The notes below the pieces were generated by a model that was not told where the DNA came from, ran no database searches, and worked only from the letters and a program-made list of their open reading frames with translations. Position numbers and translations under genes: made by a program. Positions 1,446 to 23,545 of a stretch of 24,612 nt of DNA are shown piece by piece (positions within the stretch are counted from its first letter, which is position 1; every line of letters begins with the position of its first letter). This DNA comes from a virus: IMG/VR virus record IMGVR_UViG_3300031673_005895, positions 1 to 24,612 of that record. One strand, 5' to 3'.

Positions 1446-1887
1446 TGAAATTCGGGGTTGGCTATTGCGGTATTGTGAAGAGGTCTGCGAATGCACCAAC
1501 ACCGGTGCGCTTGATGACTACGAACCAGAAGTCAAGGCTGCGCGCTTGATGCGTGAATACTTTGAACTTGAGAAACAAGGCGTGCCACAGACCCGTGGAT
1601 TGGTATGGCATCTACGCACAGCTTGCGGGGCCTCGTTGACGGCAGGGAATCCGCACATTTGTCCGCGCACCAGCACGGCGACCTCCGGGAGCCACACAAC
1701 AAAGAGTGGCGCGAATTCTGTAAGCCGCTACGACGAAGCCGCCGAATTCTACGCGCGCGCGCGCGCGCAGCGCCTGCCAGACATCGGAACCCCACAGGCG
1801 TTCATCGAGGCAGTGAAGTTCTACAGAGAACTGACAATTAAACTAGAGGCGTGGGAGGCGGTGTTGTTTGCGCAAGAAACCGAATAA
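1414..1887 (+). CDS. Hypothetical phage protein
   Basis: The frame runs to 1887 and overlaps the next gene by 20 bases. ATG codons at 1414 and 1435 are both plausible starts (157 or 150 residues). The first 50 residues (DEIRGWLLRYCEEVCECTNTG) and the last 50 (PQAFIEAVKFYRELTIKLEAWE) look like ordinary helical protein, whereas residues 60-105 are low in order and rich in Thr, Ser and His; another frame is also open there, so a pair of compensating indels is possible. A 17-base alternating CG tract lies in the second half. No family is recognised. Confidence 0.5.
   Translation: MNEEKTKMNRDEIRGWLLRYCEEVCECTNTGALDDYEPEVKAARLMREYFELEKQGVPQTRGLVWHLRTACGASLTAGNPHICPRTSTATSGSHTTKSGANSVSRYDEAAEFYARARAQRLPDIGTPQAFIEAVKFYRELTIKLEAWEAVLFAQETE
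1752..1768. repeat. Alternating CG dinucleotide tract
   Basis: A 17-base uninterrupted run of alternating C and G lies inside the coding region of the preceding hypothetical gene and encodes part of an Ala-Arg repeat. Such tracts can slip during replication and can adopt Z-DNA; a two-base slip would shift the reading frame of the last 40 codons. Confidence 0.7.
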
Positions 1888-3106
1888 TCCGCGTACCATC
1901 AGCAAGACCGAATACGCCCGCCTGCAAGCCGACCTTGAAGAGTATGGCGACCTGGGCGGAATCGTACACAATGAGACAACGGGCAACCTGGTGGGCGGGA
2001 ATCAGCGCGCATCAGTGTTTGACCTGCTTGGAAAAGGCGCAGAGATCATCATCGCCGAGGAACACGCCGAACCGACTAGGACGGGGGAGACCGCGCGGGG
2101 GTATGTGCTCTGGCACGGCGAAAAGTATGACTACCGCCGCGTGGCGTGGGATGCGGGCAAAGAGGACGCGGCGTGCCTTGTTGCCAACCTGCGCGGGGGA
2201 ACGTGGGATTGGGATATGCTGCCCGCGTTCGATGATGACCTGCTGCGCAACGTGGGCTTTGACGCCGACTTGCTCAAGGTGTGGAATGACGACGGGGCGA
2301 ATCTGGCCCTGATGTTACGGGCGGCGGAAGAGGGGCCGCCAGAAGATGAGCCGGTCAACATCGACCGTGCCGAGGAGCTTCAGGAGAAATGGGGCGTGAA
2401 GACGGGTGATGTGTGGGAGATTCCGAGCAAGACGGCGGCGGGCATTCATTTATTGCTGTGCGGAGATAGTCGCGCGGACAATGCGCAACTTGGCGCGCTT
2501 CCTGGAAATTGGGTGTACGATCCGCCCTGGGACTTGGAATTATCAAAACCAATCGGCTTTGAAAGCATACTTGTGTTTGGCGATGGTGGGAGCGCGAAAC
2601 GTGTTATTGAGATGTTTGGGGCTCCTGAGTGGATTTTCACGTGGGACTGTCAGGGGAACTTTTTTACTAACTGGAAGCGTCCGATGCGGCGCGCGAAATA
2701 TGTTTTTTGGTATGGTGATATAGACACATTCGATTTGAAAGGCGCGTTCTTTGGAGAACCGGAAGCGCCAATGATAAAAACATCAAACTTTGGAAATGAA
2801 AAATACCTGTCTCACCCAGACCCGCGTGGCAAGCACATGTATGATTTATTTGTAGAATCACTCACGAAACTTCACTCTACGATGGGACATGAGCACGAAA
2901 AAACGCTGGACTGGATACGGCTTCTCGTTGGTGATTGCTTCCGTGGTGATGTCTACGATCCATTTACTGGATCGGGAACAACGTTTGTTGCGTGTGAGCA
3001 GCTTGGGCGGCGCTGTGTCGGTGCGGAGATAGAACCACGTTTCGTTGCTCTAACTCTTCAACGGTTAAGCGATATGGGCTTGACTCCAAAGCTGGCAAGT
3101 GCTTAA
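1868..3106 (+). CDS. ParB-like domain / DNA methyltransferase fusion
   Basis: A 412-residue protein. TTG at 1868 is chosen because GGAGG at 1854-1858 is nine bases upstream. Residues 1-60 match the ParB/Srx-like N-terminal domain seen in phage methyltransferases (LGGIVHN...GNLVGGNQR). The catalytic motif IV is DPPW at 218-221 and the S-adenosylmethionine motif is DPFTGSGTT at 364-372, followed by GAEIEP at 385-390. Motif IV before motif I gives the beta-class order of amino-DNA methyltransferases (N6-adenine or N4-cytosine). Likely roles are self-protection against host restriction or packaging control next to the terminase genes. The target recognition part (about 2530-2960) is far more AT-rich than the N-terminal part, suggesting a swapped specificity module. 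The 3' end overlaps the convergent radical SAM gene. Confidence 0.85.
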   Translation: MRKKPNNPRTISKTEYARLQADLEEYGDLGGIVHNETTGNLVGGNQRASVFDLLGKGAEIIIAEEHAEPTRTGETARGYVLWHGEKYDYRRVAWDAGKEDAACLVANLRGGTWDWDMLPAFDDDLLRNVGFDADLLKVWNDDGANLALMLRAAEEGPPEDEPVNIDRAEELQEKWGVKTGDVWEIPSKTAAGIHLLLCGDSRADNAQLGALPGNWVYDPPWDLELSKPIGFESILVFGDGGSAKRVIEMFGAPEWIFTWDCQGNFFTNWKRPMRRAKYVFWYGDIDTFDLKGAFFGEPEAPMIKTSNFGNEKYLSHPDPRGKHMYDLFVESLTKLHSTMGHEHEKTLDWIRLLVGDCFRGDVYDPFTGSGTTFVACEQLGRRCVGAEIEPRFVALTLQRLSDMGLTPKLASA

Positions 3107-3827
3107 TCAAGTCGTCTTTCAGATAGTACGGTTGGCCCAGACTTTCCAGCAAGTCTACCGCGTCAACGCCGAACTGCTGCCAGTCGATCTTGGCCGCCAG
3201 CGGATGGTGATTGAGGACGCCGACTTTGAAAAGGTCAACGAACGTATGAGTCAACCGGATGATTTCCAACGCCGCCGCCGGATTGAGCACCGGCTCGAGG
3301 CTGACCCAAGTGGGGATGCCGGCTTCGTGGAAAGCGTGCAATGCGTAGATGCGTTCTGTGGGCGTGGCCGCTCCGGGTTCCCATTCCAGGCTGGCCGCAT
3401 CCGTGACTAACGTCATTGTGACTGCGTAAGCGTCGCGGCGGGTGAACAAGTCAATGTCCGCGAGCGAGCGCAGACCGCCTTTCGTGAGCACCTGAACGTT
3501 GTACCCGCCGGCGTGCAAGGTTTGGATCACCTCGCGGGTGAGACGGTATTCGGTGTCTGCGGGCTGATAGGGATCAGTCGTGAACGAGAGCAGGACCCGC
3601 ACCCCGTTGCCGGGGTTTGCCCGACAGTCGGCTTTCAACTGCTGAATGAGGCGGACGCGGGGCTTACCGCAAGCATGAAACGCGGCGCGGGCATCATCGG
3701 CGAATTTGTAAGGTGGGATGGTGGGAACATAGCAATACTTGCATCCGTGCGTACAACCGCTATAATGATTTACGGCAAGTGGGCTGTACTCGCGAGCGCG
3801 CCCTTTGGGGATATACAAAATTGACAT
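2964..3827 (-). CDS. SPL-like radical SAM protein
   Basis: A 287-residue protein on the opposite strand to everything else in the window. Residues 25-32 hold the cluster motif CTHGCKYC, the CX3CX2C set that binds a 4Fe-4S cluster and S-adenosylmethionine. Downstream motifs such as SFTTDPYQPAD, VLTKGG and SLEPVLNP follow the spore photoproduct lyase-like (PA0069/Rv2578c-type) radical SAM pattern, a family tied to DNA lesion repair by homology but mostly uncharacterised. The C-terminus ends in QQTLF plus three residues, resembling a beta-clamp binding motif. AAGGAGG lies five bases before the ATG and a consensus promoter lies upstream, so the gene is independently transcribed, like a phage moron. 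Its last 47 codons are antisense to the methyltransferase. Confidence 0.85.
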   Translation of the reverse strand: MSILYIPKGRAREYSPLAVNHYSGCTHGCKYCYVPTIPPYKFADDARAAFHACGKPRVRLIQQLKADCRANPGNGVRVLLSFTTDPYQPADTEYRLTREVIQTLHAGGYNVQVLTKGGLRSLADIDLFTRRDAYAVTMTLVTDAASLEWEPGAATPTERIYALHAFHEAGIPTWVSLEPVLNPAAALEIIRLTHTFVDLFKVGVLNHHPLAAKIDWQQFGVDAVDLLESLGQPYYLKDDLIKHLPALESSPYRLTVEELEQRNVVLSPHRHSAAQAAHTQQTLFPIQ

Positions 3828-10248: not shown

Positions 10249-11565
10249 ATGGACTACCAGACTTATGATGAACTCTTCGAGAAGTCCACCGTCCTGTTTG
10301 ACCAGGCACGCGCCATTATCGCCAACCCAGAGGCCAAGGCCGAAGAAAAAGAGAAAGCGCGCAAGATGGTAGAAGACGGTAAGAGACTTCGTGGAGACTC
10401 CAAACTCTTGCAAGAATTGGAGCAATTGAAAGGCACAGCATCCCAGGAAGCACAGAACAAGCAGGCCGCACCCGGCACCGGGCCGCGCCAACTTAAAACT
10501 CTGGGCGACTTCCTGACCGCCGTGTATTCGGCGACGTTTGAACAGCGTCGTCATCCAGACCTGAAATTCCTGAGCTATCGCGGCGATAGCGAGAAGGCGT
10601 GGACTACCCTGCAACCGGGCGCGCCTGGTGCAACCAAGGATCTGGTGGAAAACACCGGCGCCGCCGGTGGCTTCTTGGTCTTCCCAGAACACCGCAACGA
10701 ACTAATGATGTTCTCTCCGCTGATGCAACTTGTGCGCCAACGCGCGATGGTGCTGCGGATGGGTAGTCGCGTGCTACAAATCCCGGTGTTGAACCAGGGC
10801 ACTACCCCGACCGCCGGGAGTGCGTTCTTCGGCGGAGTTATCCCCTACTGGACGGAAGAAGGCGAATACAAGGACGAAAGCGAGCCGTCCTTTGGACAAA
10901 TGGAATTGATCGCGCACAAACTCATCACCTACACCGAGGCCAGTGACGAACTACTCGCTGACAGCGCCATCGGTCTGGAAGACCTGTTGCGCGGACTGTT
11001 TGGTGGGTCTATTTCTAACGAACTGGAATGGACTTTCATTAACGGCACGGGCGCAGGACAGCCGTTGGGCGTCATTAACGCACCCGTGACACTGGTTCAG
11101 CCGCGCGCCGTCGCGGGGGCCATCGGCATCGCGGATATCTTCGGGATGATTGCGCAGTTTGCCGGACAAAGCCCGATCTGGATTGCGCATCAGTCCACAC
11201 TTCTGCAACTTCTCGCCCTCAGCGGTCCGCCGCTCAATCCTTCCTACGTGTGGATCGGTAACGGGCGTGACAGTTACCCAACAACCTTGATGGGCTATCC
11301 GGTCTTCTTTGTCGAGAACGCGCAAACGCTGGGCACGCAGGGCGATCTAATCCTGGCCGACTTCTCCAAGTACGTCATCGGCGAGCGCCAAGACACCACC
11401 ATCGACTCCTCAAAGCACTATCGCTTCCGCCACGACTTGACAAGTTGGCGCGCGGTGACGCGCGTAGATGGGCGCCCGTGGGCCGTTGCTCCGGTGACTT
11501 ACCGTGACGGCGTGACATCGGTTTCCCCCTTCGTCATTCTCGGCGACATCCTGCCCGGATCATAG
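10249..11565 (+). CDS. HK97-fold major capsid protein
   Basis: A 438-residue protein with AGGAGG seven bases before its ATG. The first 90 residues are charged helix, the expected internal scaffold (delta) domain removed by the protease just upstream; no separate scaffold gene is present. The rest follows the HK97 capsid pattern: GAAGGFLVFPEHRNE, an E-loop with FFGGVIPYWTEEGEYKD, LITYTEASDELL, INGTGAGQPLGVINAP, and a P-domain end with YRFRHDLTSWRAVTRVDG. This protein forms the icosahedral shell. Confidence 0.92.
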   Translation: MDYQTYDELFEKSTVLFDQARAIIANPEAKAEEKEKARKMVEDGKRLRGDSKLLQELEQLKGTASQEAQNKQAAPGTGPRQLKTLGDFLTAVYSATFEQRRHPDLKFLSYRGDSEKAWTTLQPGAPGATKDLVENTGAAGGFLVFPEHRNELMMFSPLMQLVRQRAMVLRMGSRVLQIPVLNQGTTPTAGSAFFGGVIPYWTEEGEYKDESEPSFGQMELIAHKLITYTEASDELLADSAIGLEDLLRGLFGGSISNELEWTFINGTGAGQPLGVINAPVTLVQPRAVAGAIGIADIFGMIAQFAGQSPIWIAHQSTLLQLLALSGPPLNPSYVWIGNGRDSYPTTLMGYPVFFVENAQTLGTQGDLILADFSKYVIGERQDTTIDSSKHYRFRHDLTSWRAVTRVDGRPWAVAPVTYRDGVTSVSPFVILGDILPGS

Positions 11566-11575
11566 GAGGCATGAA

Positions 11576-12034
11576 ATGACACAAGCATATACCGAACGTT
11601 TCACAGAAGTTCACGAACCAGGCGGGACGCTGTTCCCGATTAGCCGCGCCATCGGTACATATAACACCGCGTGGCTTTCGATGCGCGACCATCAACGCAT
11701 TGTGTTTTTGATTGCCGTCGGTGTAATCGCGCAAGGTGGTACAGTCGACTTTGCCGTGCAACAGGCAACTAGCGTTCTTGGCGCAGGCGCGACTGGCGTT
11801 TTTCATAACGCCGGAACGATTGTTATCACTCAACTGACGCAGGCGGACGGCGACGATCTACTCGCCGTCGAGGTACGTTCAGAACAGATGGATGTAAATA
11901 CCGGCTATGATTTTCTGCGTGGTGTTCTAACCGTCGCCGGTGCGGCAGTACTCACTACCGTCATCCCCCTGCGCGGGGCCTCTAACTATCCGCCCGTGCC
12001 CGTGACCGGTTGGACAGAAGTTGTTGTAACCTAA
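11576..12034 (+). CDS. Phage structural protein, probable capsid accessory or decoration protein
   Basis: A 152-residue protein directly after the capsid gene, with AGGAGG overlapping the capsid stop. It is beta-rich and hydrophobic-alternating (RIVFLIAVGVIAQGGTVDF, LLAVEVRSEQMDV, VLTVAGAAVLTTVIPL), without Cys or charge clusters. Position next to the major capsid protein and its compact beta character suggest a head accessory or decoration protein. I recall similar sequences in other phages without known function. The next gene starts immediately after the stop, so it is co-translated with the glycan cassette. Confidence 0.5.
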   Translation: MTQAYTERFTEVHEPGGTLFPISRAIGTYNTAWLSMRDHQRIVFLIAVGVIAQGGTVDFAVQQATSVLGAGATGVFHNAGTIVITQLTQADGDDLLAVEVRSEQMDVNTGYDFLRGVLTVAGAAVLTTVIPLRGASNYPPVPVTGWTEVVVT

Positions 12035-12697
12035 ATGGGCAAACATTGGGTCAAGGCGCTAAAAGTTATCCGCCGGATGGAAGATGATGGCCTGTGGCAC
12101 GTCTACCATCCGGGGGATGGCCTGGAAGTGCTCAACCAGGAGCTTAACTACCAGGTATCATCGAAACAGGCCGAGCGCTATGATATCGCCGCAATGCAAC
12201 CGCTTCAAGTTGATAATTGCGCCATCGTCATCACCGGCGGGGACACAGAACAGGCACGCCGCTTTGTCGAACACACCGGAGCAACTATCTATACCGGCGA
12301 TCCGCACTTTCCAGACACTTGTCTCTTTGTGTTGTGGTGGAATGTCGGCGCGCCTTTACGTCTCGACCTAATGCCCTTGGGTTTTCACAGAATCAAAGCG
12401 GGATGGCAGACCGCCATCCCGCTTTGGCGTTACAATGTTCTGGCGCGGGACATCGGTACAGAGGATGCGCGCCGGCGTACCGAGGAGGTGATCCGCGATC
12501 TGCGTGTACCCGTCTTCGACACACGCCTCATCTATGTGCGCCGGGACTCCGAAACCGAGAGATTGCTCGACCTGTGGCTCACGGAACGCGAGACTGGCGA
12601 CGATGACAAATTGTGTTTTATGCGCGCGTTGTATGCGGTCAAGCCGTTGAATTGCGCGCTGCCCATAACGTGGATAAGCAATGGGCAAAGGCGCTAG
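12035..12697 (+). CDS. Incomplete glycosyltransferase-like protein with phage-type N-terminus
   Basis: The 220-residue product starts right after the preceding stop. Residues 1-50 (HWVKALKVIRR, YHPGDGLEVLNQEL) resemble short phage structural proteins. Residues 155-215 (VFDTRLIYVRRDSETERLLDLWLTE, then DKLCFMRALYAVKPL) align by eye with the C-terminal acceptor-side segments of the two GT-A proteins downstream (FFFRKSPAM...LFTTW, DQAALLRAL). No DxD nucleotide-sugar motif is present, so it may be inactive, act as a partner subunit, or bind glycan. It overlaps the next gene by 17 bases. Confidence 0.4.
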   Translation: MGKHWVKALKVIRRMEDDGLWHVYHPGDGLEVLNQELNYQVSSKQAERYDIAAMQPLQVDNCAIVITGGDTEQARRFVEHTGATIYTGDPHFPDTCLFVLWWNVGAPLRLDLMPLGFHRIKAGWQTAIPLWRYNVLARDIGTEDARRRTEEVIRDLRVPVFDTRLIYVRRDSETERLLDLWLTERETGDDDKLCFMRALYAVKPLNCALPITWISNGQRR

Positions 12698-13307
12698 TTG
12701 CGGCGTGTGCTTCGTGGCCTATGGCGCGCCGGCGTGCCGTGAATTGGGCGCTTCTATCGCCGCATTGCGCAAGGTCTGCGACTATCCCATTGCAATCATA
12801 AGTGACCAGAAAACGCCATACAGCGACGTGCAACATATTGTCTTTCCATTGCGTGACAAGGGCGCGCGGTGGTCAAAACTAAATCTCGACACGCTTTCAC
12901 CATTCGATTACACACTCTATCTGGACGTAGACACCCGTGTGATGGGTGGCATTTTCGCGGGCTTCGACATTCTGCAATCTGGATATGATCTAGTAATAGC
13001 TCCATCGAACTTTCAATACAGCGCCATTTTTCGCCACATTCAAAACGCAGAACGCCAGTTGACCTTCGAGGAACTGGGCACAAGCGAATTGCTGCAACTG
13101 CAAGCGGGCGTGTTCTTCTTTCGCAAGTCGCCCGCAATGTTGGAATTGTTCACGACCTGGCGTGCGGAATGGGAACGCTTTGAAGACCAGGACCAGGCCG
13201 CACTATTGCGGGCGCTGGACAAGACACCGGTCAAGTTGTGGATTCTGTCATATATGTTCAACGGCGGGGAGTTAGTACAACACTTATTCGGGAGGGCAAT
13301 AAGATAA
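12681..13307 (+). CDS. GT-A-type glycosyltransferase (GT8-like)
   Basis: A 208-residue protein. The N-terminal strand CGVCFVAYGAP leads to a Rossmann-like sheet, and LYLDVDTR at 79-86 supplies the DxD metal site (Asp82, Asp84) that binds the nucleotide sugar diphosphate. The C-terminal LQAGVFFFRKS and DQDQAALLRAL segments fit the acceptor side of GT8-like enzymes. It should transfer a sugar from an NDP-sugar donor; neither sugar nor acceptor can be told. No membrane segment, so it is cytoplasmic. The stop overlaps the next ATG (TAATG). Confidence 0.7.
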   Translation: MGKGASCGVCFVAYGAPACRELGASIAALRKVCDYPIAIISDQKTPYSDVQHIVFPLRDKGARWSKLNLDTLSPFDYTLYLDVDTRVMGGIFAGFDILQSGYDLVIAPSNFQYSAIFRHIQNAERQLTFEELGTSELLQLQAGVFFFRKSPAMLELFTTWRAEWERFEDQDQAALLRALDKTPVKLWILSYMFNGGELVQHLFGRAIR

Positions 13308-13528
13308 TGGCGCAAACACAAGACATTACTATTAACGTTGTCTATCAGGCACTTAAGATAATTCCAGGAAATTGCTACATAATCGGGGTCGAGGATGGAT
13401 ATACAGAACAAGATATGCGCGAACTTGAAATTCGGTTGGACAACAAGTTCGCTGGCCTTTTCGTTGTTGCTAAAGGTCTTGTATCTGGACGAATATCATC
13501 CAATGCAATCTCGGAACTTGCGTCTTGA
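13307..13528 (+). CDS. Small AT-rich protein of unknown function
   Basis: A 73-residue product: MAQTQDITINVVYQALK at the start, a central GNCYIIGVEDGYTEQDMRELE, and a hydrophobic FAGLFVVAKGLV near the end. It has a GGGAGG site upstream and a TAATG overlap with the glycosyltransferase before it. About 33 percent GC in its first part against roughly 55-60 percent on either side marks it as a likely insertion into the cassette together with the next gene. No family recognised. Confidence 0.55.
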   Translation: MAQTQDITINVVYQALKIIPGNCYIIGVEDGYTEQDMRELEIRLDNKFAGLFVVAKGLVSGRISSNAISELAS

Positions 13529-13552
13529 ATATCCACGAAAGGAGGTGATAAA

Positions 13553-13756
13553 ATGATGCGGAAAATCGTTATTTTTAGTGGCTTGGATTTAGGAATAAAA
13601 CTTTGCGAATTGCTTGGATTTGATACGGCTATCACATCAGAGATAAACGTATCCATAACACCAGATAAGCCCGTTACTGTTATGACATCAACCGTTTTAG
13701 AAGATGATAAAGTCGAAACTTTCTTAAGTGCGTTAAAGGAACAAGAATTCGAGTGA
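13553..13756 (+). CDS. Small AT-rich protein of unknown function
   Basis: A 67-residue product with a near-perfect AAAGGAGGTGA ribosome binding site, the best in the cassette; ATG 13553 or 13556 may be used. The sequence has SGLDLGIKLCELLGFD, then a beta-like NVSITPDKPVTVMTSTVLEDD, then a terminal helix. GC is about 32 percent at its start. It is coupled by a GTGA overlap to the large glycosyltransferase gene downstream. I recognise no domain; the preceding 73-residue gene is its likely partner. Confidence 0.6.
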   Translation: MMRKIVIFSGLDLGIKLCELLGFDTAITSEINVSITPDKPVTVMTSTVLEDDKVETFLSALKEQEFE

Positions 13757-15420
13757 ACATCCACATCGTATGCCGAAACTGGAAGGACGACCGTGTACTC
13801 CCGCGTTTCACCCGCTACCTGATGCAAGCGCACGGTTGGACGGCAAGCGCGGAGGCCGATCCGCACGCCACTGTTAACTACCTGGTGGCATACTTTGAAT
13901 ACCAGAAAGTTAAGAGTGCGCTATCGCTGCCATTTGCAGCATATATGACGCACCGCGAGGAAGGCGATAACGCCAAGTCACAGTTATATGACCAGGCCGC
14001 CGGCGCCGCCACGTTGCGCGTGGCAATGAACCAGGCGCAACTTGCCGGGCTGAAACGCTTTGGCAATAGTATGGCGTTGCCACTACCGCTGGAAACCGAG
14101 AACTTTGTACCGCGCCCCCATCCACCCGCCAAGCAACCTGTCGTCGGATTATCAGGCTACACCTATGCCAACGGGCGCAAGGGCGAGGCACTCATCAGTG
14201 CATTGAAAGACATTGATGGAATTGAACTCAAGGCCAGCGGGCGCGGATGGAGCGTGCCGACGAAGATGTATAAGTGGCACGAAATGCCCGACTTCTACCG
14301 CAGCCTCGACCTGTTCGTTTGTACGTCCCTAGTAGAGGGTGGCCCGATGACGACGCTGGAGGCGTTGTCTTGTGGTGTCCCAGTGGTGATTCCTTCCGGC
14401 GTGGGGATTCACGACGAACTCCCCAAGGTGCTCGGCATCTATCGTTATGCACGCGGAGACACGAAGTCGCTCATCGCCGCTGTAGAAAAAGCATTGCGGG
14501 AACTCGGTATACACAAGCCGGATGCACTACGTAACGCAACTGAGCCGCATAGTGTCGAGGCGTGGTGTCGGGCAAATATAGATATGTTTGAAACGTTCAT
14601 TGATAAATCTGTCATCACTCCGCCCAAGACGACGCCTTCCGGAACTGGTAAGGCGGGCGTGTACGTTGTCGCTTTCGGAGAACCGGCACGCGCCGAAGCG
14701 CTCCGTTGCATCAACAGTATTCACACGCAAATGAAAGGCATACCCGTCGCGTTATGTTCGGACAGGGCGCTGGGGCCAGAAGACGTGTTAATCCAGAAGC
14801 CAGATGCCGACATCGGCGGACGCATTGCGAAATTGAGTGTCTACGACTACGCGCCCCAAGACTGGGAATATATTCTTTATCTGGATGCCGATATTGAAAT
14901 TGTGACACCTGCGCCGATGTTTTACTTCGATGTATTGCGCGACGGGTGGGAGTTCGCCATTTGCAAAGATGCGCATCTGCACGACACATTATCAGACCTC
15001 CAACGCCGCAACAACTTTGAGGAGGTACGACAAACTATTGCTTTCACCGGCACGGGCGAGAGTTTGCAGATCAATGGCGGAGCGTGGTCCTTCCGGCGCA
15101 ACGCCAATACCAAAAAATTCTTTGCGCTGTGGCTTAAAGAATGGAACGTCTACAAAGGCCGCGACCAGGGCGCTTTGATCCGGGCGCTGTATACTCATCC
15201 GCTACGCACCTACTGGTTGGGCAGCGAATGGAATACACTCATCACCCTGAAGGGCCACGAATACCCGCCAGGCAAAGCGGGGTCTGCCGGGGTACTGCAC
15301 CGCGTCGGTAAGGCGCGCCGATGGACGGGACAAGTACCGGCAGGCAAGGGACTGACCGACCCGGAAGCATGGGCAATGGTGAAGGCGTGGGAAGCATCGA
15401 GCGGAAGGGGGCGCAAATAA
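13753..15420 (+). CDS. Bifunctional glycosyltransferase: GT-B (GT4-like) plus GT-A domain
   Basis: A 555-residue protein starting at GTG 13753. Residues 1-285 are a GT-B enzyme of the GT4 kind: VVGLSGYTYANGRKG opens the donor half and EGGPMTTLE at 195-203 gives the E-x7-E signature, followed by ALSCGVPVV. Residues 300-555 are a GT-A domain: VYVVAFGEP, LYLDADIE with Asp378 and Asp380 as DxD, then LQINGGAWSFRRN and DQGALIRAL, closely parallel to the GT-A protein at 12681. The N-terminal half of the GT-B part is short. Two linked transferases imply two consecutive sugar additions. Confidence 0.78.
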   Translation: MNIHIVCRNWKDDRVLPRFTRYLMQAHGWTASAEADPHATVNYLVAYFEYQKVKSALSLPFAAYMTHREEGDNAKSQLYDQAAGAATLRVAMNQAQLAGLKRFGNSMALPLPLETENFVPRPHPPAKQPVVGLSGYTYANGRKGEALISALKDIDGIELKASGRGWSVPTKMYKWHEMPDFYRSLDLFVCTSLVEGGPMTTLEALSCGVPVVIPSGVGIHDELPKVLGIYRYARGDTKSLIAAVEKALRELGIHKPDALRNATEPHSVEAWCRANIDMFETFIDKSVITPPKTTPSGTGKAGVYVVAFGEPARAEALRCINSIHTQMKGIPVALCSDRALGPEDVLIQKPDADIGGRIAKLSVYDYAPQDWEYILYLDADIEIVTPAPMFYFDVLRDGWEFAICKDAHLHDTLSDLQRRNNFEEVRQTIAFTGTGESLQINGGAWSFRRNANTKKFFALWLKEWNVYKGRDQGALIRALYTHPLRTYWLGSEWNTLITLKGHEYPPGKAGSAGVLHRVGKARRWTGQVPAGKGLTDPEAWAMVKAWEASSGRGRK

Positions 15421-15959
15421 TGCCATCTCATTGGACGTTAGCCTATGCACAATTGCGGCGCTGCGTGCCTCAGATATTCAGACCGGGGACGTGTCTGTAT
15501 GTTGGAGCGTCGCGCGACAAATTCGCCAACAGCGCGCGCGAGCTGATTAAGGCCGGGCGCGTTGTCACGATCCTTGAGATTTGGGAACCCAACTGCGAAT
15601 TCTACCGCCAGCAACCGACAATCGCCCGCGTACACCGGGGGGATGTGCGCGACGTGGCGCAATATGACTTACCGCATTTCGACTTGTGTATGTGGTTTCA
15701 CGGCCCAGAGCATATTCCAGTAGCCGACCTACCCGCCACACTCGTGGCGCTAGAGGCACAAGCCGACCTGGTGGTGCTGGCCTGTCCGTTTGGAGTGACG
15801 GTACAACGTGAGGAAGAGATGCGTGGGAACCCGTGGCAAAAGCATCTTGCGGGACTATTGCCTGAAGATTTCCAACGCCTGGGTTATCAGATAGACACAT
15901 TCGGGAAAGAAGCGGATTGGAACGCCTGCAACCTGTTGGCGTGGAAGAAGAGCAAATGA
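15420..15959 (+). CDS. SAM-dependent methyltransferase-like protein
   Basis: A 179-residue class I methyltransferase-like protein. ATG 15420 overlaps the preceding TAA and follows a GGAAGGGGG stretch. Residues 24-31 (TCLYVGAS) give a glycine-poor motif I, ILEIWEPN at 51-58 supplies the acidic residue for the SAM ribose, GDVRD at 74-78 follows, and MWFHGPEHI at 91-99 is the usual segment after strand 4. In this setting the likely substrate is a sugar or lipid-linked sugar, but the sequence does not say. Motif I is weaker than in the other two methyltransferases. Confidence 0.65.
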   Translation: MPSHWTLAYAQLRRCVPQIFRPGTCLYVGASRDKFANSARELIKAGRVVTILEIWEPNCEFYRQQPTIARVHRGDVRDVAQYDLPHFDLCMWFHGPEHIPVADLPATLVALEAQADLVVLACPFGVTVQREEEMRGNPWQKHLAGLLPEDFQRLGYQIDTFGKEADWNACNLLAWKKSK

Positions 15960-17041
15960 AAACGCTCGAATTGACAGAAGCACAAATGGACGTGCATCCC
16001 GTCGGGCTGGGGCGCTTCTGTCGAATACTGTATGACGAATGGCTTGACAAATTCTTAGCCAAGCGATTTGGGCGCAAGGGCTTATGCCTCAAGGTACTGC
16101 GCTATCCCGGCGATGTGTGGGAAGGCGCGCCACTAGAGCAGGCAGTCAAATTACAGAACATTGCCGCGCTGCGGGGGATGGCTCCGCGCGTCTACGCTAT
16201 CGTCAAATTGCCAGACGGGATGTTGGCCCAGGTGACGGACTGGACGCCGCCGGGTGTCGAGCCGACGTTGGAGGGCATTGAAAAGCTGGCACGTTTCTTA
16301 CGCGAGATAGGCGCACAAACGGCGAAACGGATAGCGCCCAACGGCCCGGCGAAGTGGGACATCGTAACCTCAACGTCGAACTGGTGCGGTGACAGGTTTC
16401 TTGATTGGGGCGGGATGACATTGGCAGACCAACAAAATTATGAGGAAGGTTTGCGCGCGCGCGTGATGGTGCGTATCGAACGCGCGTATCGGGGCGACCC
16501 CGCCGACCATACTTATCAGGCTTTACCGCAACTGAATATCGCGGGCGCGCGCGATTTCAAGCATCGCCTTGATGCGACAGGACTGGATAAACTAGAATTG
16601 AAGGGAAAGACGGTACTCGCCCTCGGCTGTAACCTGGGGGAGTTTTGCTTCTATGCTGATGACCGGGGCGCGCGCCGCGTGGTTGGGGTTGACTTGCCCT
16701 TCCTGGCGCAGCCGATGCAAGAGGTTGCGAATTGGTTGGGATATTGGAATGTTGACATTGTGGGGGCCGAACTGCCCAGAGAGGTGGGAACGATTGCGGA
16801 AGCCACGAAGTTGCAGGGCTTCGATGTAGTGCTTGCTTTGTCAATATGTAACCACATTGGAGGATACGGGCGCTGGATAGCCGATCTGTGCAAAGATATG
16901 CTCATACTTGAAGGACACGGCGGCGACCAACCAGAAAAGTACCTTGATGATTTGCGCCGCGACTTTGCGAAGGTCGATCTGGTTGGATATACAACCGACG
17001 TGATGAAACGCCCGGTATTTGTTTGCCGCAAGGGGGCATAA
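15956..17041 (+). CDS. Kinase-like N-terminal domain fused to SAM methyltransferase
   Basis: A 361-residue protein; ATG 15956 overlaps the previous stop as ATGA. Residues 15-155 resemble a small protein- or sugar-kinase fold: LCLKVLRY with Lys46, Glu61, GMAPRVYAIVKLPDG and FLDWGG at 148-153, similar to a DFG loop; a canonical HxD catalytic loop is not clear. Residues 215-355 are a class I methyltransferase with VLALGCNLGEF at 220-230, VVGVDLP at 242-248 and FDVVLALSICNHI. Such fusions occur in polysaccharide biosynthesis loci, where glycans are phosphorylated and methylated at the end. Kinase activity is uncertain. Confidence 0.6.
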   Translation: MKTLELTEAQMDVHPVGLGRFCRILYDEWLDKFLAKRFGRKGLCLKVLRYPGDVWEGAPLEQAVKLQNIAALRGMAPRVYAIVKLPDGMLAQVTDWTPPGVEPTLEGIEKLARFLREIGAQTAKRIAPNGPAKWDIVTSTSNWCGDRFLDWGGMTLADQQNYEEGLRARVMVRIERAYRGDPADHTYQALPQLNIAGARDFKHRLDATGLDKLELKGKTVLALGCNLGEFCFYADDRGARRVVGVDLPFLAQPMQEVANWLGYWNVDIVGAELPREVGTIAEATKLQGFDVVLALSICNHIGGYGRWIADLCKDMLILEGHGGDQPEKYLDDLRRDFAKVDLVGYTTDVMKRPVFVCRKGA

Positions 17042-17766
17042 TGATACAGATTGTAGTAGACACACTTAACCGCTTACCAGAATTGCAACAAACGCTGAAG
17101 TCGATCTGGTATAGGACGACAACGCCCTACACGATGCACGTCATCGACGACGCCAGCACGGAAGGCAATCAAAAATGGCTAGTGAATATGCAACGCCGGG
17201 GCAAGATTCACGGTTTAACATTGCGCCCGGCACGCTTGGGGATTCCGGCAAATTGGAACGAAGCCGCGCGAACAGGTGACAGCGAGATACTTGTCTACAC
17301 CAACGGCGACGTGTTGTGTCCGTTGGTCGAGCCGGACTGGTTGGCGCGCGGGCTGGCAATGCTGAAGAAATATCCAGACCTGGGGATGCTGAGCTTGAAC
17401 AATCCATTTTGTACCGCGAAGCATTCGTGGAGAATTGCTGAGGTGCGGGATGGCGTGACGATTGTTGACCGCGTGCCGTCGTTCTTCCTGTTCGTGCGGC
17501 GCGAGCTGATGCAAAAGATCATCCTGCCCGCCATTGGGGAAAAGATATACCGTCTTCCGATGACAGAAACCTACAAGGGCATTGATAGAATGTGGAGCCG
17601 TGGCGCGCAAGCAAACGGCTACGTGGTAGGCTATTTGACGCGCACCTACTGCAAACACATCGGCTATCATTCGGTGCGCACGGATGAAAACTTCACAAAA
17701 GTCGGGGCGCGAGTAGAACCGCTCAACATAGAGACGCTAGAGCCGCCGGAGAAGTATGCTGGATGA
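17041..17766 (+). CDS. Glycosyltransferase family 2 (GT-A)
   Basis: A 241-residue enzyme with ATG in the previous stop (TAATG). The N-terminus IQIVVDTLNRLPELQQTLKS is the usual GT2 opening, VIDDAS at 34-39 has the donor-binding Asp, TNGDV at 87-91 replaces DxD, and the C-terminal part carries PSFFLFVRREL and KGIDRMWSRG where GT2 enzymes have their acceptor loop and ED motif. No transmembrane helix, so it is a soluble transferase. Overlaps the formyltransferase gene by four bases. Confidence 0.78.
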   Translation: MIQIVVDTLNRLPELQQTLKSIWYRTTTPYTMHVIDDASTEGNQKWLVNMQRRGKIHGLTLRPARLGIPANWNEAARTGDSEILVYTNGDVLCPLVEPDWLARGLAMLKKYPDLGMLSLNNPFCTAKHSWRIAEVRDGVTIVDRVPSFFLFVRRELMQKIILPAIGEKIYRLPMTETYKGIDRMWSRGAQANGYVVGYLTRTYCKHIGYHSVRTDENFTKVGARVEPLNIETLEPPEKYAG

Positions 17767-18461
17767 AAGTTGACTTGTTTCTGAACGGGCCTTTGGGGGC
17801 CTGGGTGTTGGGCCAGGTAGACGCAAGCGAGGTGGGGTGCGTACACTCGCCCAGCGCGGAGATTTGCGGCAGGGCGCGCGCGTTGGGAATTTCGGCACAC
17901 GAAGGCACGGCAAACAACGCGACCTATACCGCGCAGGCCATTGGGGTTTCGATGCACTATCCGTACATTCTGAAGAGTCGCGTCTTGCGGCGCTACGAGG
18001 CATTATACAACATCCATCCGGCGTTGCTGCCGTGGGGGAAGTGCTACTATCCGGTATTCTGGGCATTATTGAAGGGTGAGCCTGCTGGATGTACGCTGCA
18101 TAGGATCGCGGCGGGCATTGATGACGGCGATATTGTGGCACAAAAGCGCGTTCCGGTCTACGAATGGGACACGGGAGGGACGTTGCATCAGCGGGTGAGC
18201 GAAGCAGAAAAGGGACTGTTCCTGGAATACTGGACGCGCATCGTGGCGGGGGAAACGCTCGAAACGCAGCCGCAACCCCCTGGTGGCAGTTTTTATTATA
18301 AGCGTGAGTTTATGGCGTTGAAGAATAACGCAGACATCGAAGCGCTGAGCGGACCGGAATTGCTACAATTGATCCGTTGTCTGTCACACCCATCCTACAG
18401 CGGTCTGGCGGTAACGGCAGGCGGGCGGCGTTACGAGGTGAGTATGAGGGCACTGGAATGA
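17763..18461 (+). CDS. Formyltransferase-like enzyme (amino sugar N-formyltransferase candidate)
   Basis: A 232-residue protein of the methionyl-tRNA formyltransferase fold. YNIHPALLP at 82-90 and GIDDGDIV at 119-125 carry the Asn83-His85-Asp120 catalytic set; GEPAGCTLHRI lies between. The donor would be N10-formyltetrahydrofolate. It lacks the C-terminal tRNA-binding domain of true Fmt and has a shortened N-terminus. Next to an amino-sugar aminotransferase it most likely formylates a 4-amino- or 3-amino-deoxysugar nucleotide, as VioF/FdtF-type enzymes do. Glycinamide ribonucleotide formyltransferase is the main alternative but would not fit the neighbours. Confidence 0.75.
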   Translation: MKVDLFLNGPLGAWVLGQVDASEVGCVHSPSAEICGRARALGISAHEGTANNATYTAQAIGVSMHYPYILKSRVLRRYEALYNIHPALLPWGKCYYPVFWALLKGEPAGCTLHRIAAGIDDGDIVAQKRVPVYEWDTGGTLHQRVSEAEKGLFLEYWTRIVAGETLETQPQPPGGSFYYKREFMALKNNADIEALSGPELLQLIRCLSHPSYSGLAVTAGGRRYEVSMRALE

Positions 18462-19075
18462 CGCTCGCCAGAGGAGAGGCGGCGATTGTGATTCCTAGCC
18501 TGGACCTGGAACGCGCAGCGAAAACGGGCGTGGATGCGCGGGCCACGGCCGGGGTGGATACGTACATTATCATCGTCAATGATTTCGAGCGGCGGGGCGG
18601 GATCAAGCCGGCCAATGCCGGATTCCAGGCGGCGCTTGAACTGGGCGTTCCCTATGTGGTATACCTGAATGACGACACTAGCTTCCCGAAAGGCCGCTGG
18701 CTGGCGCGCTTGATCGACGCGCTCAACGAAGACCCATCCTATGGCGTGGCGGTCCCTTCGTCATTATCAAACCGAGGGAGCAGGCATCCGCAACAGAACA
18801 CCGGGGCGGGAGCCGAGATGGGGGTGTTCGTAGAACCCGAACCGCTGGCGTGGCATTGTGCGGTTATGCGCCGCGAAATGCTGATTGATGTGGGAATATT
18901 TGACCCCGTGTTTTGGCAGTTTTGTGGCGACGCCGACTTAACGCGACGGATGCAGGCAGCGGGCTGGAAGTCGGTCTGGGTGCGGGATTGTTATGTCCAT
19001 CACGAACAAGGGGTGTTGGATGCAGGATGGAAGAAACGGGATAAGGGGATTTATTTGCACAGGTGGGGAAAATGA
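18458..19075 (+). CDS. Glycosyltransferase family 2-like protein
   Basis: A 205-residue protein starting at ATG 18458 (ATGA overlap). AAIVIPSLDLE opens the sheet, the donor-binding acidic residue is in IIIVNDFE, YVVYLNDDTSF at 67-76 gives the metal site, WHCAVMRREMLIDVGIFDPVFW is the typical GT2 acceptor-side segment, and CGDADLTRRM corresponds to the ED catalytic motif. The architecture is like rhamnosyl-type GT2 enzymes that read NDD and DxD motifs, shorter than usual. It is followed at once by the aminotransferase. Confidence 0.75.
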   Translation: MTLARGEAAIVIPSLDLERAAKTGVDARATAGVDTYIIIVNDFERRGGIKPANAGFQAALELGVPYVVYLNDDTSFPKGRWLARLIDALNEDPSYGVAVPSSLSNRGSRHPQQNTGAGAEMGVFVEPEPLAWHCAVMRREMLIDVGIFDPVFWQFCGDADLTRRMQAAGWKSVWVRDCYVHHEQGVLDAGWKKRDKGIYLHRWGK

Positions 19076-20190
19076 TTCAAGTTTTCAGCAACACACTAGG
19101 AGTAGAAGAACTGGCAGCCGCCGAGCGCGCCTTTGCCTCGCACTGGTTAGGAAAGGGGAACGAGTGTGACGCCTTCGAGAAAGAATTCCTTGCCTATCGT
19201 GGCGGCGTGGGGGAAATGCTCTTGACGAACAACTGCACCAGCGCCATCTATATTGCCCTGCGCGCGCTTGGAATTGGGCCGGGGGACGAAGTGATTGTGC
19301 CGACGGTACATTTTGTGGCGGCGGCTAATGCCATCATAGACGCGGGCGCGCGCGTGGTCTTTGCCGACGTTTCTGCACAGACCTTAAATCTATTGCCCAA
19401 AGAAATCACGCGCCTACGCACACTGCGCACCAAGGCCGTATTTCTCTTGCATTACGGCGGTCATCCGTGTGATATGGACGCTATCCGCAAAGAGGCGGAG
19501 GGGTTATTCGTCATCGAAGACACCGCCAATGCCGTATCGTCCGCCTATCACGGGCGCGCGTGCGGGACGCTGGGGGACGCGGGCGTGTGGTCATTCGACG
19601 CAATGAAAATCCTGGTGATGATTGACGGCGGGGCACTGTGGCTGAAGGACGAAGAAAGCGCCAAGCGCGCCACGATGTACCGTTACTTGGGACTATTGCC
19701 GCAAACCACGTCGGGAGTGGATGCACAGAAGGCGGGGGCAGGGCGCTGGTGGCAATTCGATTTAGGCGTAACGTCTGGGCGCTTCATCAGCAATGACGTA
19801 AGCGCGGCTATTGGGCGAATACAATTACAGAAGTTGCCCGGATTCATCGCCCGGCGCAAGGAAATATGGGAAGTCTATCAGAGCGGGTTGGCCGGTGTTG
19901 GCGATTTGATCTTGCCACCCGAACCACTGCCTGATTGTACATCGTCTTACTATCTCTACTGGATTCAGACGGCGCGCCGCGATGAACTGGCGGCATACCT
20001 GGGGGAACGCGGGATATACACGACCTTTCGTTATTACCCGTTGCATCTAGTCAAATTTTACGAATCGCGGGCGCACTTGCCCAATGCAGAATTTGTCGGA
20101 TCGACTACCTTATGCCTACCTATCCATCAGAACTTGACCGATGATGACGTAGGGCGGGTAGTGGACACAGTGCGGGAGTTCTTTGAATGA
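19072..20190 (+). CDS. DegT/DnrJ/EryC1/StrS-family sugar aminotransferase
   Basis: A 372-residue PLP enzyme. It has the family opening (SHWLGKGNECDAFEKEFLAYRG), TNNCTSAIYIALRALGIGPGD at 52-71, Asp150 in VIEDTANA for the PLP ring nitrogen, and Lys179 in SFDAMK for the Schiff base. It should aminate a keto group on an NDP-4-keto or 3-keto-deoxysugar, with glutamate as donor. The dehydratase that would make this substrate is not in the window, so the host or another phage region must supply it. ATG 19072 is chosen over GTG 19063 because it overlaps the previous stop. Confidence 0.88.
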   Translation: MIQVFSNTLGVEELAAAERAFASHWLGKGNECDAFEKEFLAYRGGVGEMLLTNNCTSAIYIALRALGIGPGDEVIVPTVHFVAAANAIIDAGARVVFADVSAQTLNLLPKEITRLRTLRTKAVFLLHYGGHPCDMDAIRKEAEGLFVIEDTANAVSSAYHGRACGTLGDAGVWSFDAMKILVMIDGGALWLKDEESAKRATMYRYLGLLPQTTSGVDAQKAGAGRWWQFDLGVTSGRFISNDVSAAIGRIQLQKLPGFIARRKEIWEVYQSGLAGVGDLILPPEPLPDCTSSYYLYWIQTARRDELAAYLGERGIYTTFRYYPLHLVKFYESRAHLPNAEFVGSTTLCLPIHQNLTDDDVGRVVDTVREFFE

Positions 20191-20642
20191 AACTCAACCT
20201 GGGCGCAGGCAACAAGATCGATGCCGAGGCCATCAATCACGACATCACGAAACATCGGCCAGAAATTGATGTTGCCTGGGATTTGAATGTATTCCCGTGG
20301 CCGTGGAAAGATGAGAAGTTTGACGTGATTAACGCTTGGGCGGTTTTGGAGCACCTACAGGCCGACCGCTTGCAGATTTTCAATGAGATGTGGCGCATTT
20401 TGCAGCCGGGCGGTTTAGCGGCGATAAAACTCCCCGCGTGGAATAGCGACGAGGCCCACCAGGATTTTACACATTATTGGTATGCGACGCCACGCAGCCT
20501 GGACTCGCTAGACCCGACAACAGAACTAGGAAAGGCGCACAACTTCTACACGCCGCGCAAGTGGAAAATCGAGCGGGTGAAATGGTGCAGCGCGGGGAAG
20601 TCCTCGTTATATTTCAGACTGCGCAAGGTGGCGGGAGGGTAG
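20187..20642 (+). CDS. SAM-dependent methyltransferase (small class I)
   Basis: A 151-residue methyltransferase. KLNLGAGNK at 2-10 is motif I, NHDITKH gives the following acidic residue, FDVINAWAVLEHL is the post-strand-4 signature, and RILQPGGLAAIKLP the next. The fold is near complete but short at the C-terminus. This is the small single-domain type common in glycan gene clusters. ATG overlaps the stop of the aminotransferase, and the connector gene follows after one base. Confidence 0.75.
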   Translation: MKLNLGAGNKIDAEAINHDITKHRPEIDVAWDLNVFPWPWKDEKFDVINAWAVLEHLQADRLQIFNEMWRILQPGGLAAIKLPAWNSDEAHQDFTHYWYATPRSLDSLDPTTELGKAHNFYTPRKWKIERVKWCSAGKSSLYFRLRKVAGG

Positions 20643-20643
20643 T

Positions 20644-21363
20644 ATGCCATACGCAACTAACATAGAATTACGCGCCCGAATCAACAAAACTAGCGCCGCC
20701 GATGACGCCACGCTCACGGCGCTCATCGCGGCGGCAGGGATTAACATCGACCGTGCCGTCGGGCAATATCACAACGGCCTCGAGTTTTTCCTTGCCCCCG
20801 CCGTGGCTTCGGCGCGCATCTATGCCGGTTCGGGCTTGGCTTTCCAATGGATTGATCCATGCGTTGTCATCAGTACCGTAGCGGTTAAAACATCCTACAC
20901 CGATGCTGCATACACATCTTGGGTGCCGGCGGACTGGATTGCCGGAAGTGGGAGTTATCAACATCCAGACTATAACGACCTGCCATATACAATGCTCCTG
21001 ACCGCGCCGATGGGAAATTATAGCATTTTCACCTCCGGGCGCACCGGAGGGGGCCAGCAGTGGGATGCCATTTTCGCTCTATCAGAAGCATCCTACGTGT
21101 CGCGGGGCAGCATTGGGCCGGCTGTGCCGACCGTGCAAGTGACGGCGCGCTGGGGTTATAGCGCCACTGTGCCACCCGACATCCGCGAAGCATGCCTGAT
21201 GCAGGCCGCGCGCTGGTGGAAGCGTTTCGAGAGTGCGTTTAGCGATACCCTCGCCAGCGGTGAATTGGGCCAACTATTCTACCGACAATCGCTCGACCCG
21301 GACATCCGTCGCGTCCTGGTCGATGGGCGTTATGTCAAGCCGGCCGTCGGGAGGCGCGCGTGA
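20644..21363 (+). CDS. Head-tail connector protein
   Basis: The 239-residue product has a GGGAGGG site before ATG 20644. N-terminal helix ELRARINKTSAADDATLTALIAAAGINIDRAVG is the typical start of phage gp6-like adaptor proteins, and PDIREACLMQAARWWKR near residues 178-194 is the typical second helix. The middle, about residues 60-170, is a beta-rich insert that makes the protein longer than the usual 100-200. It should form the ring below the portal. The glycan cassette interrupts the usual closeness of this gene to the capsid gene. Confidence 0.75.
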   Translation: MPYATNIELRARINKTSAADDATLTALIAAAGINIDRAVGQYHNGLEFFLAPAVASARIYAGSGLAFQWIDPCVVISTVAVKTSYTDAAYTSWVPADWIAGSGSYQHPDYNDLPYTMLLTAPMGNYSIFTSGRTGGGQQWDAIFALSEASYVSRGSIGPAVPTVQVTARWGYSATVPPDIREACLMQAARWWKRFESAFSDTLASGELGQLFYRQSLDPDIRRVLVDGRYVKPAVGRRA

Positions 21364-21761
21364 GTGCATTAAGCGCCGAAATCAAGGGTTTGCGCGAAAC
21401 ACAAAAGGCAATGGAGAACATCGTCAAGGAATTGCACGGCAGTTCAGTATTGAACGCAATGCGCAGCGCCACGCTATGGGTTGAGCGCAACGCGCGCATG
21501 AACGCACCCGTAGACACCGGACGGCTTCGGGCTTCAATCTGGCCTGAAGTAAAAACTGCCGGGACGCAGGTGCTCGGCATCGTCGGGACAAAGGTGGTCT
21601 ATGGCGCGAAGATGGAACAACCTGGCCCGGTGCGCCGCTCTGGCCGGCGTCCATATCTCAAGCCGGCATTAATTGAAAATCAAGAGCGCATCTTCAAACT
21701 GCTCGACAATGCCGTGGCAATGATTATTTCGCGCAATAGCACAAGCGGAGGTACGGAATAA
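21360..21761 (+). CDS. HK97 gp10-like head closure / minor tail protein
   Basis: A 133-residue protein from GTG 21360. It carries the HK97 gp10 family pattern: an N-terminal helix, LWVERNARMNAPVDTGRLRASIWPEVK, a VYGAKMEQPG segment and PYLKPALIENQERIF. Proteins of this family link head and tail. The start overlaps the connector stop (GTGA) and the stop overlaps the next start (TAATG), in the expected neck gene order. Confidence 0.88.
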   Translation: MSALSAEIKGLRETQKAMENIVKELHGSSVLNAMRSATLWVERNARMNAPVDTGRLRASIWPEVKTAGTQVLGIVGTKVVYGAKMEQPGPVRRSGRRPYLKPALIENQERIFKLLDNAVAMIISRNSTSGGTE

Positions 21762-23545
21762 TGACCTGGCCGACCGGCGTCTACGTTGCAACTGAGTCGC
21801 GCGGCATATTTTATACCGCGAATTTTACCGACCCCACCGATGCTACACAACCCATCTGGACGGCGGTCAATGGCGGACTGGGCGTGCTGACGATCTTCAA
21901 TTTCGCCCTCGATCCGTTTGATCGCGCCGGACGCCAGTTGTGTTTGACGACTACCGAGAATACGGTTTACATCCGTTATGGCGCAGGCAACTGGGCGCCG
22001 ATCCTCACACAAGCACAAACGCGCACCATCACCGGAAATGTAGCAGCGATCAATTGTTGGGTGACAGCGGATAACAGCATTGCGGGGCGCGTGTGGGTAG
22101 CCGCATACGCCCAGGTCGGCGCGGATAACCGACTGCTTTTTCTGCGCACTGACGATGATGGCATAAACTGGACGTGGACACAGACCGGGAATAGATGGCC
22201 ACTGTTTGGATGGGGAAATTTGATTGCTAATGGTACGGAGTTGTGGTTTTCATTCAGTAGCGGAACCGGCGGGCCTGGCAAGATGGGCTACAGCAATGAC
22301 ATCGGAGCAACGTGGTCGCTCACAGTAGGATATGACTCTGCAACGGGCTATGCGGCTGTTAATCCATTAGAGCTATTTAAAGTGTACTCTCCAAAATTCT
22401 ACGATTTGTATTCTGTGGATACCGCTATGGCTATAACAAAACTGCAAGACGTGTTGAATCTCGGCGATGTGACCTCTTCGCAGCAGTTATGGTTTTCTGC
22501 AAATGGCACAGGATACCAGCGTATTGTAAAGAGCTACAAAATTTATACGACGCTTGACGGATGGGCAACCGTTGTTGATCCTGCACCAGTAGCCAAGACG
22601 AACGCCATAAGTACACTACTTGCGCCATTGAGTAGTAATGAGGACTGGATGATTCTAGGATCACGGACACCATTGGCATTACAAACTCATACCATTTTTA
22701 CACTCATCGGTGATACGGGTATCGAGATAGGTAAATCTGGCAGTGATCCAATAGGTGGTGTGGATAGCATACCTAAAGCCGGAAACGGATTGACGCTTGA
22801 TGGAATCGGATTACTGGTGGCAAACCTCGCTCCGCCGACCGCGACAATCACGCCCGCCGCCGCGAATACAAATCAGGTCTGCGAATCGCAGACGTTTGTT
22901 GCCACGCTCACGGGGATAATTGCAGAAACATATCTGTGGAGTACGGACGGATTAGTTTCCGGGCAAGGGACGCCAACGGCGGTTTATAACTGGTCTGCGA
23001 CGTGCGGGCATACAGTCAGCGTCATTATCACGGCCGCCGGAGCAAATTACACAGCTACCTATTCGCCCGTTCTTACCCTGAGCCTGATGCAGATTTGCAC
23101 GGCCATTAAAAACACCCTCCAAGGCGCAATGAGTGCCAGTCTATTGGCGCGCGTATACAACTTCAACGAACTACCCGAAGGAGTGAATGACGCGCCGTCG
23201 CTGATGGTGTACTGGCAGAATGTAGTCAATGATGCCTTACACGGGGAAACCGACCGCTGGACATTTGCGGGGCGACGTGTTAAAGATATGGCATTTCACG
23301 TCGACTTTTTCGCTAACCCGCGCAACAACCTGGACGAGAATAACGAGACGCTTACCGAGGCGGCCAGCGAGATCATTGACATACTGGAAATGCAATCGCT
23401 CATTTGTGCAGCCAATGCGCATTGCCCGCCGTTCGGTCTGTGCGCGCTAAAATCATTTCACTGGCAAGGCGAGCGCGTCGTCTTTGATTATGGCGGCGTC
23501 ATCTACTACGGCGCGCGTTTTATCATCACCGTGAGGACGTATTGA
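21761..23545 (+). CDS. BNR/Asp-box beta-propeller and PKD-like domain fused to tail terminator protein
   Basis: A 594-residue protein. Residues 1 to about 350 look like sialidase-type propeller blades, with Asp boxes TDDDGINW at 130-137 and SNDIGATW at 178-185 and a blade-like PIWTAVNGGLG at 31-41. Residues about 358-440 look like a PKD/Ig-type domain (TITPAAANTN, YLWSTDG, HTVSVIITAAG). Residues 441-594 fit a tail terminator or completion protein, normally a stand-alone 130-150 residue protein (ICTAIKNTLQG, APSLMVYWQN, FHVDFFANP, GARFIITVRTY). Gene order supports that role. About 22200-22800 (residues 146-346) is much more AT-rich than both sides, suggesting replacement of blades. The propeller may project from the neck and bind glycan. 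Confidence 0.65.
   Translation: MTWPTGVYVATESRGIFYTANFTDPTDATQPIWTAVNGGLGVLTIFNFALDPFDRAGRQLCLTTTENTVYIRYGAGNWAPILTQAQTRTITGNVAAINCWVTADNSIAGRVWVAAYAQVGADNRLLFLRTDDDGINWTWTQTGNRWPLFGWGNLIANGTELWFSFSSGTGGPGKMGYSNDIGATWSLTVGYDSATGYAAVNPLELFKVYSPKFYDLYSVDTAMAITKLQDVLNLGDVTSSQQLWFSANGTGYQRIVKSYKIYTTLDGWATVVDPAPVAKTNAISTLLAPLSSNEDWMILGSRTPLALQTHTIFTLIGDTGIEIGKSGSDPIGGVDSIPKAGNGLTLDGIGLLVANLAPPTATITPAAANTNQVCESQTFVATLTGIIAETYLWSTDGLVSGQGTPTAVYNWSATCGHTVSVIITAAGANYTATYSPVLTLSLMQICTAIKNTLQGAMSASLLARVYNFNELPEGVNDAPSLMVYWQNVVNDALHGETDRWTFAGRRVKDMAFHVDFFANPRNNLDENNETLTEAASEIIDILEMQSLICAANAHCPPFGLCALKSFHWQGERVVFDYGGVIYYGARFIITVRTY

Follow-up and report, generated by a model that had tools for sequence, protein, structure and literature searches.

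A Glycan Cassette between the Capsid and Neck Genes

What does a phage glycosylate with a block of sugar enzymes set between its capsid and neck genes? The question is raised by the window analyzed here, a 24,612-base stretch of an IMG/VR virus record (IMGVR_UViG_3300031673_005895), which carries an HK97-type structural module in the order portal (fused to a Mu F-like domain), protease, major capsid protein (MCP), accessory protein (Acc), glycan block (12035–20642), head-tail adaptor, and gp10-like neck protein. We favor, with a probability of roughly two in three, a cytosolic, phage-encoded, late O-glycosylation of a virion protein, most likely the MCP or Acc, by a cassette with a conserved core (genes G1, G2, and G4) and a variable end. 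The core is tied to the particle by its capsid-adjacent position together with its co-divergence with the MCP.

The initial annotation had listed four glycosyltransferase (GT) genes, one incomplete transferase-like gene, three methyltransferases, a formyltransferase, and a DegT aminotransferase between the capsid/accessory genes and the adaptor, and we found every listed gene open and in its place, all on the + strand. The four GT genes are G2, G4, G7, and G9, with Pfam support for the last three; as G4 has two transferase domains, the block therefore holds five. The incomplete gene is G1, and the formyltransferase (G8) and aminotransferase (G10) are both clear. The three methyltransferases are partly unproven, since G11 matched well and G6 weakly, while G5 gave no convincing profile match and was so called from the look of its sequence.

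Translational coupling through ATGA, GTGA, and TAATG, also described at the outset, holds at nearly all junctions once starts are refined. TAATG joins G2 to the open reading frame (ORF) at 13307, G4 to G5, and G6 to G7; ATGA joins G5 to G6, G7 to G8, G8 to G9, G9 to G10, and G10 to G11; GTGA occurs at 13753; and G1 and G2 overlap by 17 bases. The earlier inventory omitted two small ORFs that separate G2 from G4, one (13307–13528, 73 a.a.) TAATG-coupled to G2 and with no convincing family match, the other (13553–13756, 67 a.a.) without a Pfam match and preceded by AGGAGG, the strongest ribosome-binding site within the cassette. The GC content stays near 0.55, dipping to 0.47 at 13001–14000. Promoter-like matches, terminator-like matches, and RNA families, considered as transcript evidence, were at chance level or absent.

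Distribution and Co-Divergence of the Core

The initial annotation missed that the cassette is a lineage-wide trait; its suggestion that the same gene set be sought between capsid and connector in relatives was borne out for G1, G2, and G4, with the remaining content varying. A scan with the MCP recovered ten closely related loci (L002–L005, L007–L012) and a scan of genomes two more (L053, L054). Wherever the MCP identity is about 40% or higher (12 loci, L009 and L010 among them), the MCP is followed by Acc and G1, a result that is independent of G2. No G1 was found in more distant MCP loci, some of which lie on contigs that end soon after the MCP. A G2 profile scan returned 150 relatives, of which 80 were kept, and the counts that follow cover 86 G2 contigs; the G4 profile alone recovered only L004, the relatives being found with the MCP and G2 profiles. 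The order MCP-Acc-G1-G2, on one strand, was seen in 75/75 contigs showing both MCP and G2, and G4 was present in 71 of the 86. A chance arrangement is excluded because the order is kept in about 85 related contigs.

Between Acc and the adaptor, the distance ranges from 2.4 kb (L090) to 15.9 kb (L088) among the 26 contigs reaching the adaptor, a few of which are near-duplicates. The shortest block holds G1, G2, and a single 263-a.a. ORF that appears by eye to be a transferase, with no convincing Pfam or PHROGs match. In a locus with a distant MCP (L046), the adaptor directly follows Acc, constituting an empty site. No glycan block was found in the cultured relatives Kronos and Dagobah, G1, G2, and G4 had no match among 50,697 phage records, and no DNA-level matches to the cassette phage were seen in cultured phages. 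Judged by its gene order and distribution, the cassette thus marks an uncultivated lineage of HK97-type phages and is not a stray insertion.

Pairwise identities of the core proteins follow those of the capsid protein (MCP-G1 r = 0.51, MCP-G4 r = 0.32, MCP-G2 r = 0.19), with 0/999 permutations as high. The identity correlation of portal and G2 was not significant across 16 contigs.

A G2-like transferase also lies between terminase and portal in two contigs (L131:2981–3637 and L132:1185–1841), exceptions to the usual place after the capsid gene that amount to a shift of the G2 family inside the structural region of a different phage type. Naming a host through L053 (an Anaerolineae metagenome-assembled genome) and L054 (a Phycisphaerae one) was rejected, as these are short contigs (4.8–34 kb) and a binning error is possible; relatives were present in 3/298 genomes of the class of L053.

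The Conserved Transferases

Also missed at first were the conserved pairing of a pseudo-transferase with a transferase (G1/G2) and the bifunctional nature of G4. G2 (12681–13307) is a predicted core enzyme of the GT8 family with a conserved active site: residues D82, D84, D171, Q172, and H201, corresponding to the DxD motif, the D-Q pair, and the C-terminal metal-binding His, are invariant in 69/69 sequences. Pfam assigned GT8 to 15/69 members of the family and Nucleotid_trans to 13/69; because the window's own G2 alone gave no match, we regard it as a divergent member. Against the PDB, the G2 profile matched glycogenin-2 (1e-4), over a short stretch that does not in itself prove a protein acceptor. 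Glycogenin is a protein-glycosylating GT8 enzyme.

G1 (12035–12697), present in nearly every cassette, comprises a small N-terminal domain and a GT-A-like domain. Its AlphaFold2 model is confident (pLDDT 93.4), with weak Foldseek matches (E about 0.01) to GT-A-type folds, including A197 of the archaeal virus STIV, and in hhalign its C-terminal half aligns to G2 (probability 99). No GT8-type active site was found in G1, the second Asp of the DxD being present in 6/67 sequences and the D-Q pair and His not conserved; G1 is accordingly classed, from fold prediction and alignment, as a GT-A-like pseudoenzyme. For its N-terminal domain, no stand-alone gene was found in relatives, and PHROGs and Pfam gave scattered weak matches only. 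As dead and active transferases are conserved as a pair, a G1-G2 heteromer is suggested, in which G1 may target or stabilize G2.

G4 (13753–15420) is a putative bifunctional GT, with a GT4-like N-terminal half (Pfam Glyco_trans_1_4, 6e-10) and a G2-like GT-A C-terminal half; both active sites are invariant in 6/6 sequences.

The Variable End

Downstream of the core, G5 (15420–15959) is methyltransferase-like and without a Pfam match. G6 (15956–17041), a probable methyltransferase with an N-terminal extension (FtsJ/Methyltransf_23, about 1e-3), has homologues in several cassettes. Two predicted GTs belong to this variable part, G7 of the GT2 family (17041–17766; Glycos_transf_2, 2e-9) and the GT2-like G9 (18458–19075; Glycos_transf_2, 4.5e-5). 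G8 (17763–18461) is a predicted amino-sugar N-formyltransferase with intact N-x-H and Asp motifs (Formyl_trans_N, 1.6e-16; best PDB match PseJ, 6ci2, 1e-22), and G10 (19072–20190) a DegT-type, pyridoxal phosphate (PLP)-dependent sugar aminotransferase (9e-88; best PDB match TlmJ, 5uid, 4e-105). The last gene, G11 (20187–20642), encodes a putative S-adenosylmethionine (SAM)-dependent methyltransferase (Methyltransf_11, 3e-8), the commonest variable gene of the relatives.

We assembled 108 proteins (the window formyltransferase plus 107 ORFs of relatives, from non-duplicate complete cassettes with G4 left out) to survey this content. Among the 25 commonest of 47 Pfam families, methyltransferases were foremost, followed by GTs, sulfotransferases (6), and epimerase/dehydratases (5). 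DegT was present in 2/17 long relatives and formyltransferase in 1/17, so that a formylated amino sugar is the variant of this phage and no rule of the lineage. Hence, of the virion decoration with a formylated, methylated glycan first proposed, the decoration itself is favored by the fixed place of the core beside the capsid gene, by co-divergence, and by the absence of gtr or O-antigen membrane parts, whereas "formylated" is peculiar to this phage.

Such wide differences in content between relatives, and the rarity of DegT and formyltransferase in the lineage, would also be expected if G1 and G2 were genuine virion glycosylation genes and the variable block a recombination hotspot of unrelated sugar genes without a single pathway. 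We consider this improbable, given the tight gene overlaps in the window, the one chemical theme of the genes, and the recurrence of adjacent DegT and formyltransferase genes in another contig (L076).

Two cassettes of relatives deserve mention. One (L011:11269–12815) has two adjacent genes that resemble transketolase halves, plus an NAD-epimerase-like gene (read by eye). In the other, a 591-a.a. ORF (L114:6905–8680) has a concanavalin A/laminin-G-like lectin domain and is the sole multi-spanning prediction among the 108.

Membrane and DNA-Modification Routes

Phage gtr serotype-conversion loci need a GtrA flippase and a GtrB lipid-carrier transferase; the present cassette resembles them in its phage-encoded GTs and differs in that GtrA is absent. 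With controls working, the GtrA-type flippase family PF04138 was found in 0/17 long contigs and the flippase family PF01943 likewise in 0/17, so that the locus reads neither as a gtr locus nor as a Wzx/Wzy O-antigen or capsule cluster. Multiple membrane spans were predicted in 1/108 cassette ORFs and in none of the window cassette, upholding the earlier statement that it has no membrane flippase or polymerase. The cassette is thus predicted to be soluble, with export machinery absent, and its acceptor is likely cytosolic because no lipid-carrier or export machinery was found.

These results bear on the main rival, in which a host surface glycan is remodeled late via host lipid-linked intermediates and host export, serving superinfection exclusion or keeping released virions off debris. 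DegT, formyl, and methyl chemistry is typical of O-antigens, variability fits escape from rivals, and many phage GTs target host envelopes. Working against it, in addition to the missing flippases, are cassettes nearly without membrane proteins and a core that keeps its place between the genes for capsid and adaptor and co-diverges with the capsid; we therefore hold it to be unlikely, if the most serious of the alternatives.

Several points do weigh against virion glycosylation. The virion glycans are read solely from the genes of uncultured phages, the position in a late operon tells timing and not substrate, and the order count of the core covers contigs that were selected for G2. Host lipid-linked intermediates could serve soluble GTs as substrates, and the GT8 enzymes of pelagimyophages have been interpreted as host O-chain modifiers (PMC7029224). 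Lastly, no 4,6-dehydratase was seen in the window beside DegT and the formyltransferase, and the 4-keto sugar would therefore have to be supplied by the host or from beyond the window; five cassette ORFs of relatives have Epimerase/GDP_Man_Dehyd matches.

Virus-encoded GTs that hypermodify DNA are on record (Pyle 2024, as cited in PMC12619734), and a DNA methylase is encoded in the window (1868–3106), which could suggest that the cassette decorates modified bases of phage DNA. However, with controls working, the thymidylate synthase/dCMP hydroxymethylase family PF00303 was found in 0/17 long related contigs (TET/JBP was not searched, and contigs may be incomplete), and aminotransferase, formyl, sulfo, and methyl chemistry next to capsid genes is atypical of DNA modification. 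This explanation is the least probable that we weighed, and very much so.

A Proposed Glycosylation Pathway

Under the favored late glycosylation of a virion protein, we infer from the genes which protein is the acceptor, in what order the steps run, what G1 does, and how the glycan is built. G2 would place or extend the first sugar or sugars, and G1, its catalytically dead partner, may bring it into place on the virion protein. Further core sugars would be added by G4 through its two transferase domains, after which the variable enzymes would build and attach a phage-specific terminal sugar. In this phage, G10 would aminate a host 4-keto nucleotide sugar, G8 would formylate the amine to a formamido-deoxy sugar, G5, G6, and G11 would methylate, and G7 and G9 would transfer, such that an amino sugar, formylated and methylated, is the probable terminal sugar here. 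The overall pattern suggests particles coated with custom sugars, which vary between viruses.

More tentatively, and at somewhat less than even odds, the whole lineage may have a built-in self-glycosylation of its particles, in which G1/G2 initiates on a capsid-associated protein, the bifunctional GT extends, and a swappable block writes a phage-specific sugar "face". Giant viruses, with their autonomous glycosylation, would then have a prokaryotic counterpart.

Comparison with Known Systems

Virion glycosylation was already known in mycobacteriophages, a precedent that the initial annotation did not mention: in Che8 and relatives, the subunits of capsid and tail tube are glycosylated (Freeman et al. 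2023, as cited in PMC12619734 and PMC11256854). As far as these accounts relate, Che8 is likewise tailed, encodes few soluble GTs, and presumably makes its glycans in the cytoplasm. Its three GT genes, however, lie at the right end of the genome (56171–58673) and its adaptor directly follows the MCP, whereas the present cassette is inside the structural operon and has its own G1/G2/G4 core. A197 of STIV (archaeal Turriviridae; PMC10551542) is similarly a small soluble GT-A protein with a proposed role in cytoplasmic glycosylation of the major capsid protein, but it is a single gene from another virus realm with no multi-enzyme cassette, and here G1 is without the active site and G2 has it.

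Chloroviruses and mimivirus share with the cassette a virus-encoded set of GTs and nucleotide-sugar enzymes, and the viosamine of mimivirus is made by a PLP aminotransferase followed by N-acylation and O-methylation of the 4-amino sugar (PMC4691112). These are giant eukaryotic viruses, with acetyl instead of formyl groups and no operon between capsid and neck genes; like A197, their systems are analogous to the cassette in function. The GT clusters of pelagimyophages also form a hypervariable, GT8-containing block near structural genes, but this block is near the tail-fiber genes, with no capsid-adjacent fixed core described (PMC7029224). We found no description of a capsid-adjacent glycosylation system in the open literature, a coverage outside which many journals fall.

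Few cultured tailed phages are known to have virion glycosylation, and here a lineage-wide, operon-embedded system appears. It has a constant core and a hypervariable end, the latter resembling an arms-race surface. G1, G2, and G4 offer concrete genes for addressing membrane-free particle glycosylation, pseudo-transferase targeting to the capsid, and the purpose of sugars on phage particles, and they caution that phage GTs need not all be O-antigen modifiers.

The Flanking Structural Module

The MCP (10249–11565, +; Pfam Phage_capsid 7e-37), a candidate glycan acceptor, has the HK97 fold, and its relatives are 39–57% identical. Acc (11576–12034, +; 152 a.a.), encoded 3′ of the capsid gene, matched phrog_28483, which has no assigned function. 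It is a predicted beta-sandwich (AlphaFold2 pLDDT 90.7), with Foldseek matches that include viral capsid jelly rolls and CBM22, all at TM < 0.5. As Acc adjoins the MCP, is a predicted beta-sandwich, and is also kept in relatives without a glycan block, it could plausibly serve as a decoration protein and, like the MCP, as an acceptor. Homology of Acc to an Eph receptor, also among the Foldseek matches (TM < 0.5), was rejected as reflecting a common beta-sandwich only.

The downstream border of the cassette is the head-tail adaptor (20644–21363, +; phrog_442, 1.4e-11), followed by an HK97 gp10-like neck/tail-completion protein (21360–21761, +; phrog_5, 7.8e-10). In one relative (L136:17128–18810), an intein carrying a DUF559 endonuclease-like domain splits the gp10-like neck gene. 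At the other side of the window, a radical SAM protein (2964–3827, −) is encoded on the strand opposite the structural operon, its gene running toward that of the DNA methylase. The last ~155 a.a. of a 594-a.a. neck/tail protein (21761–23545, +) match stand-alone genes of 148–212 a.a. in the same place in 16 relatives; its N-terminal extension of ~438 a.a. occurs in this phage alone and has no clear family, with a weak BNR-like match.

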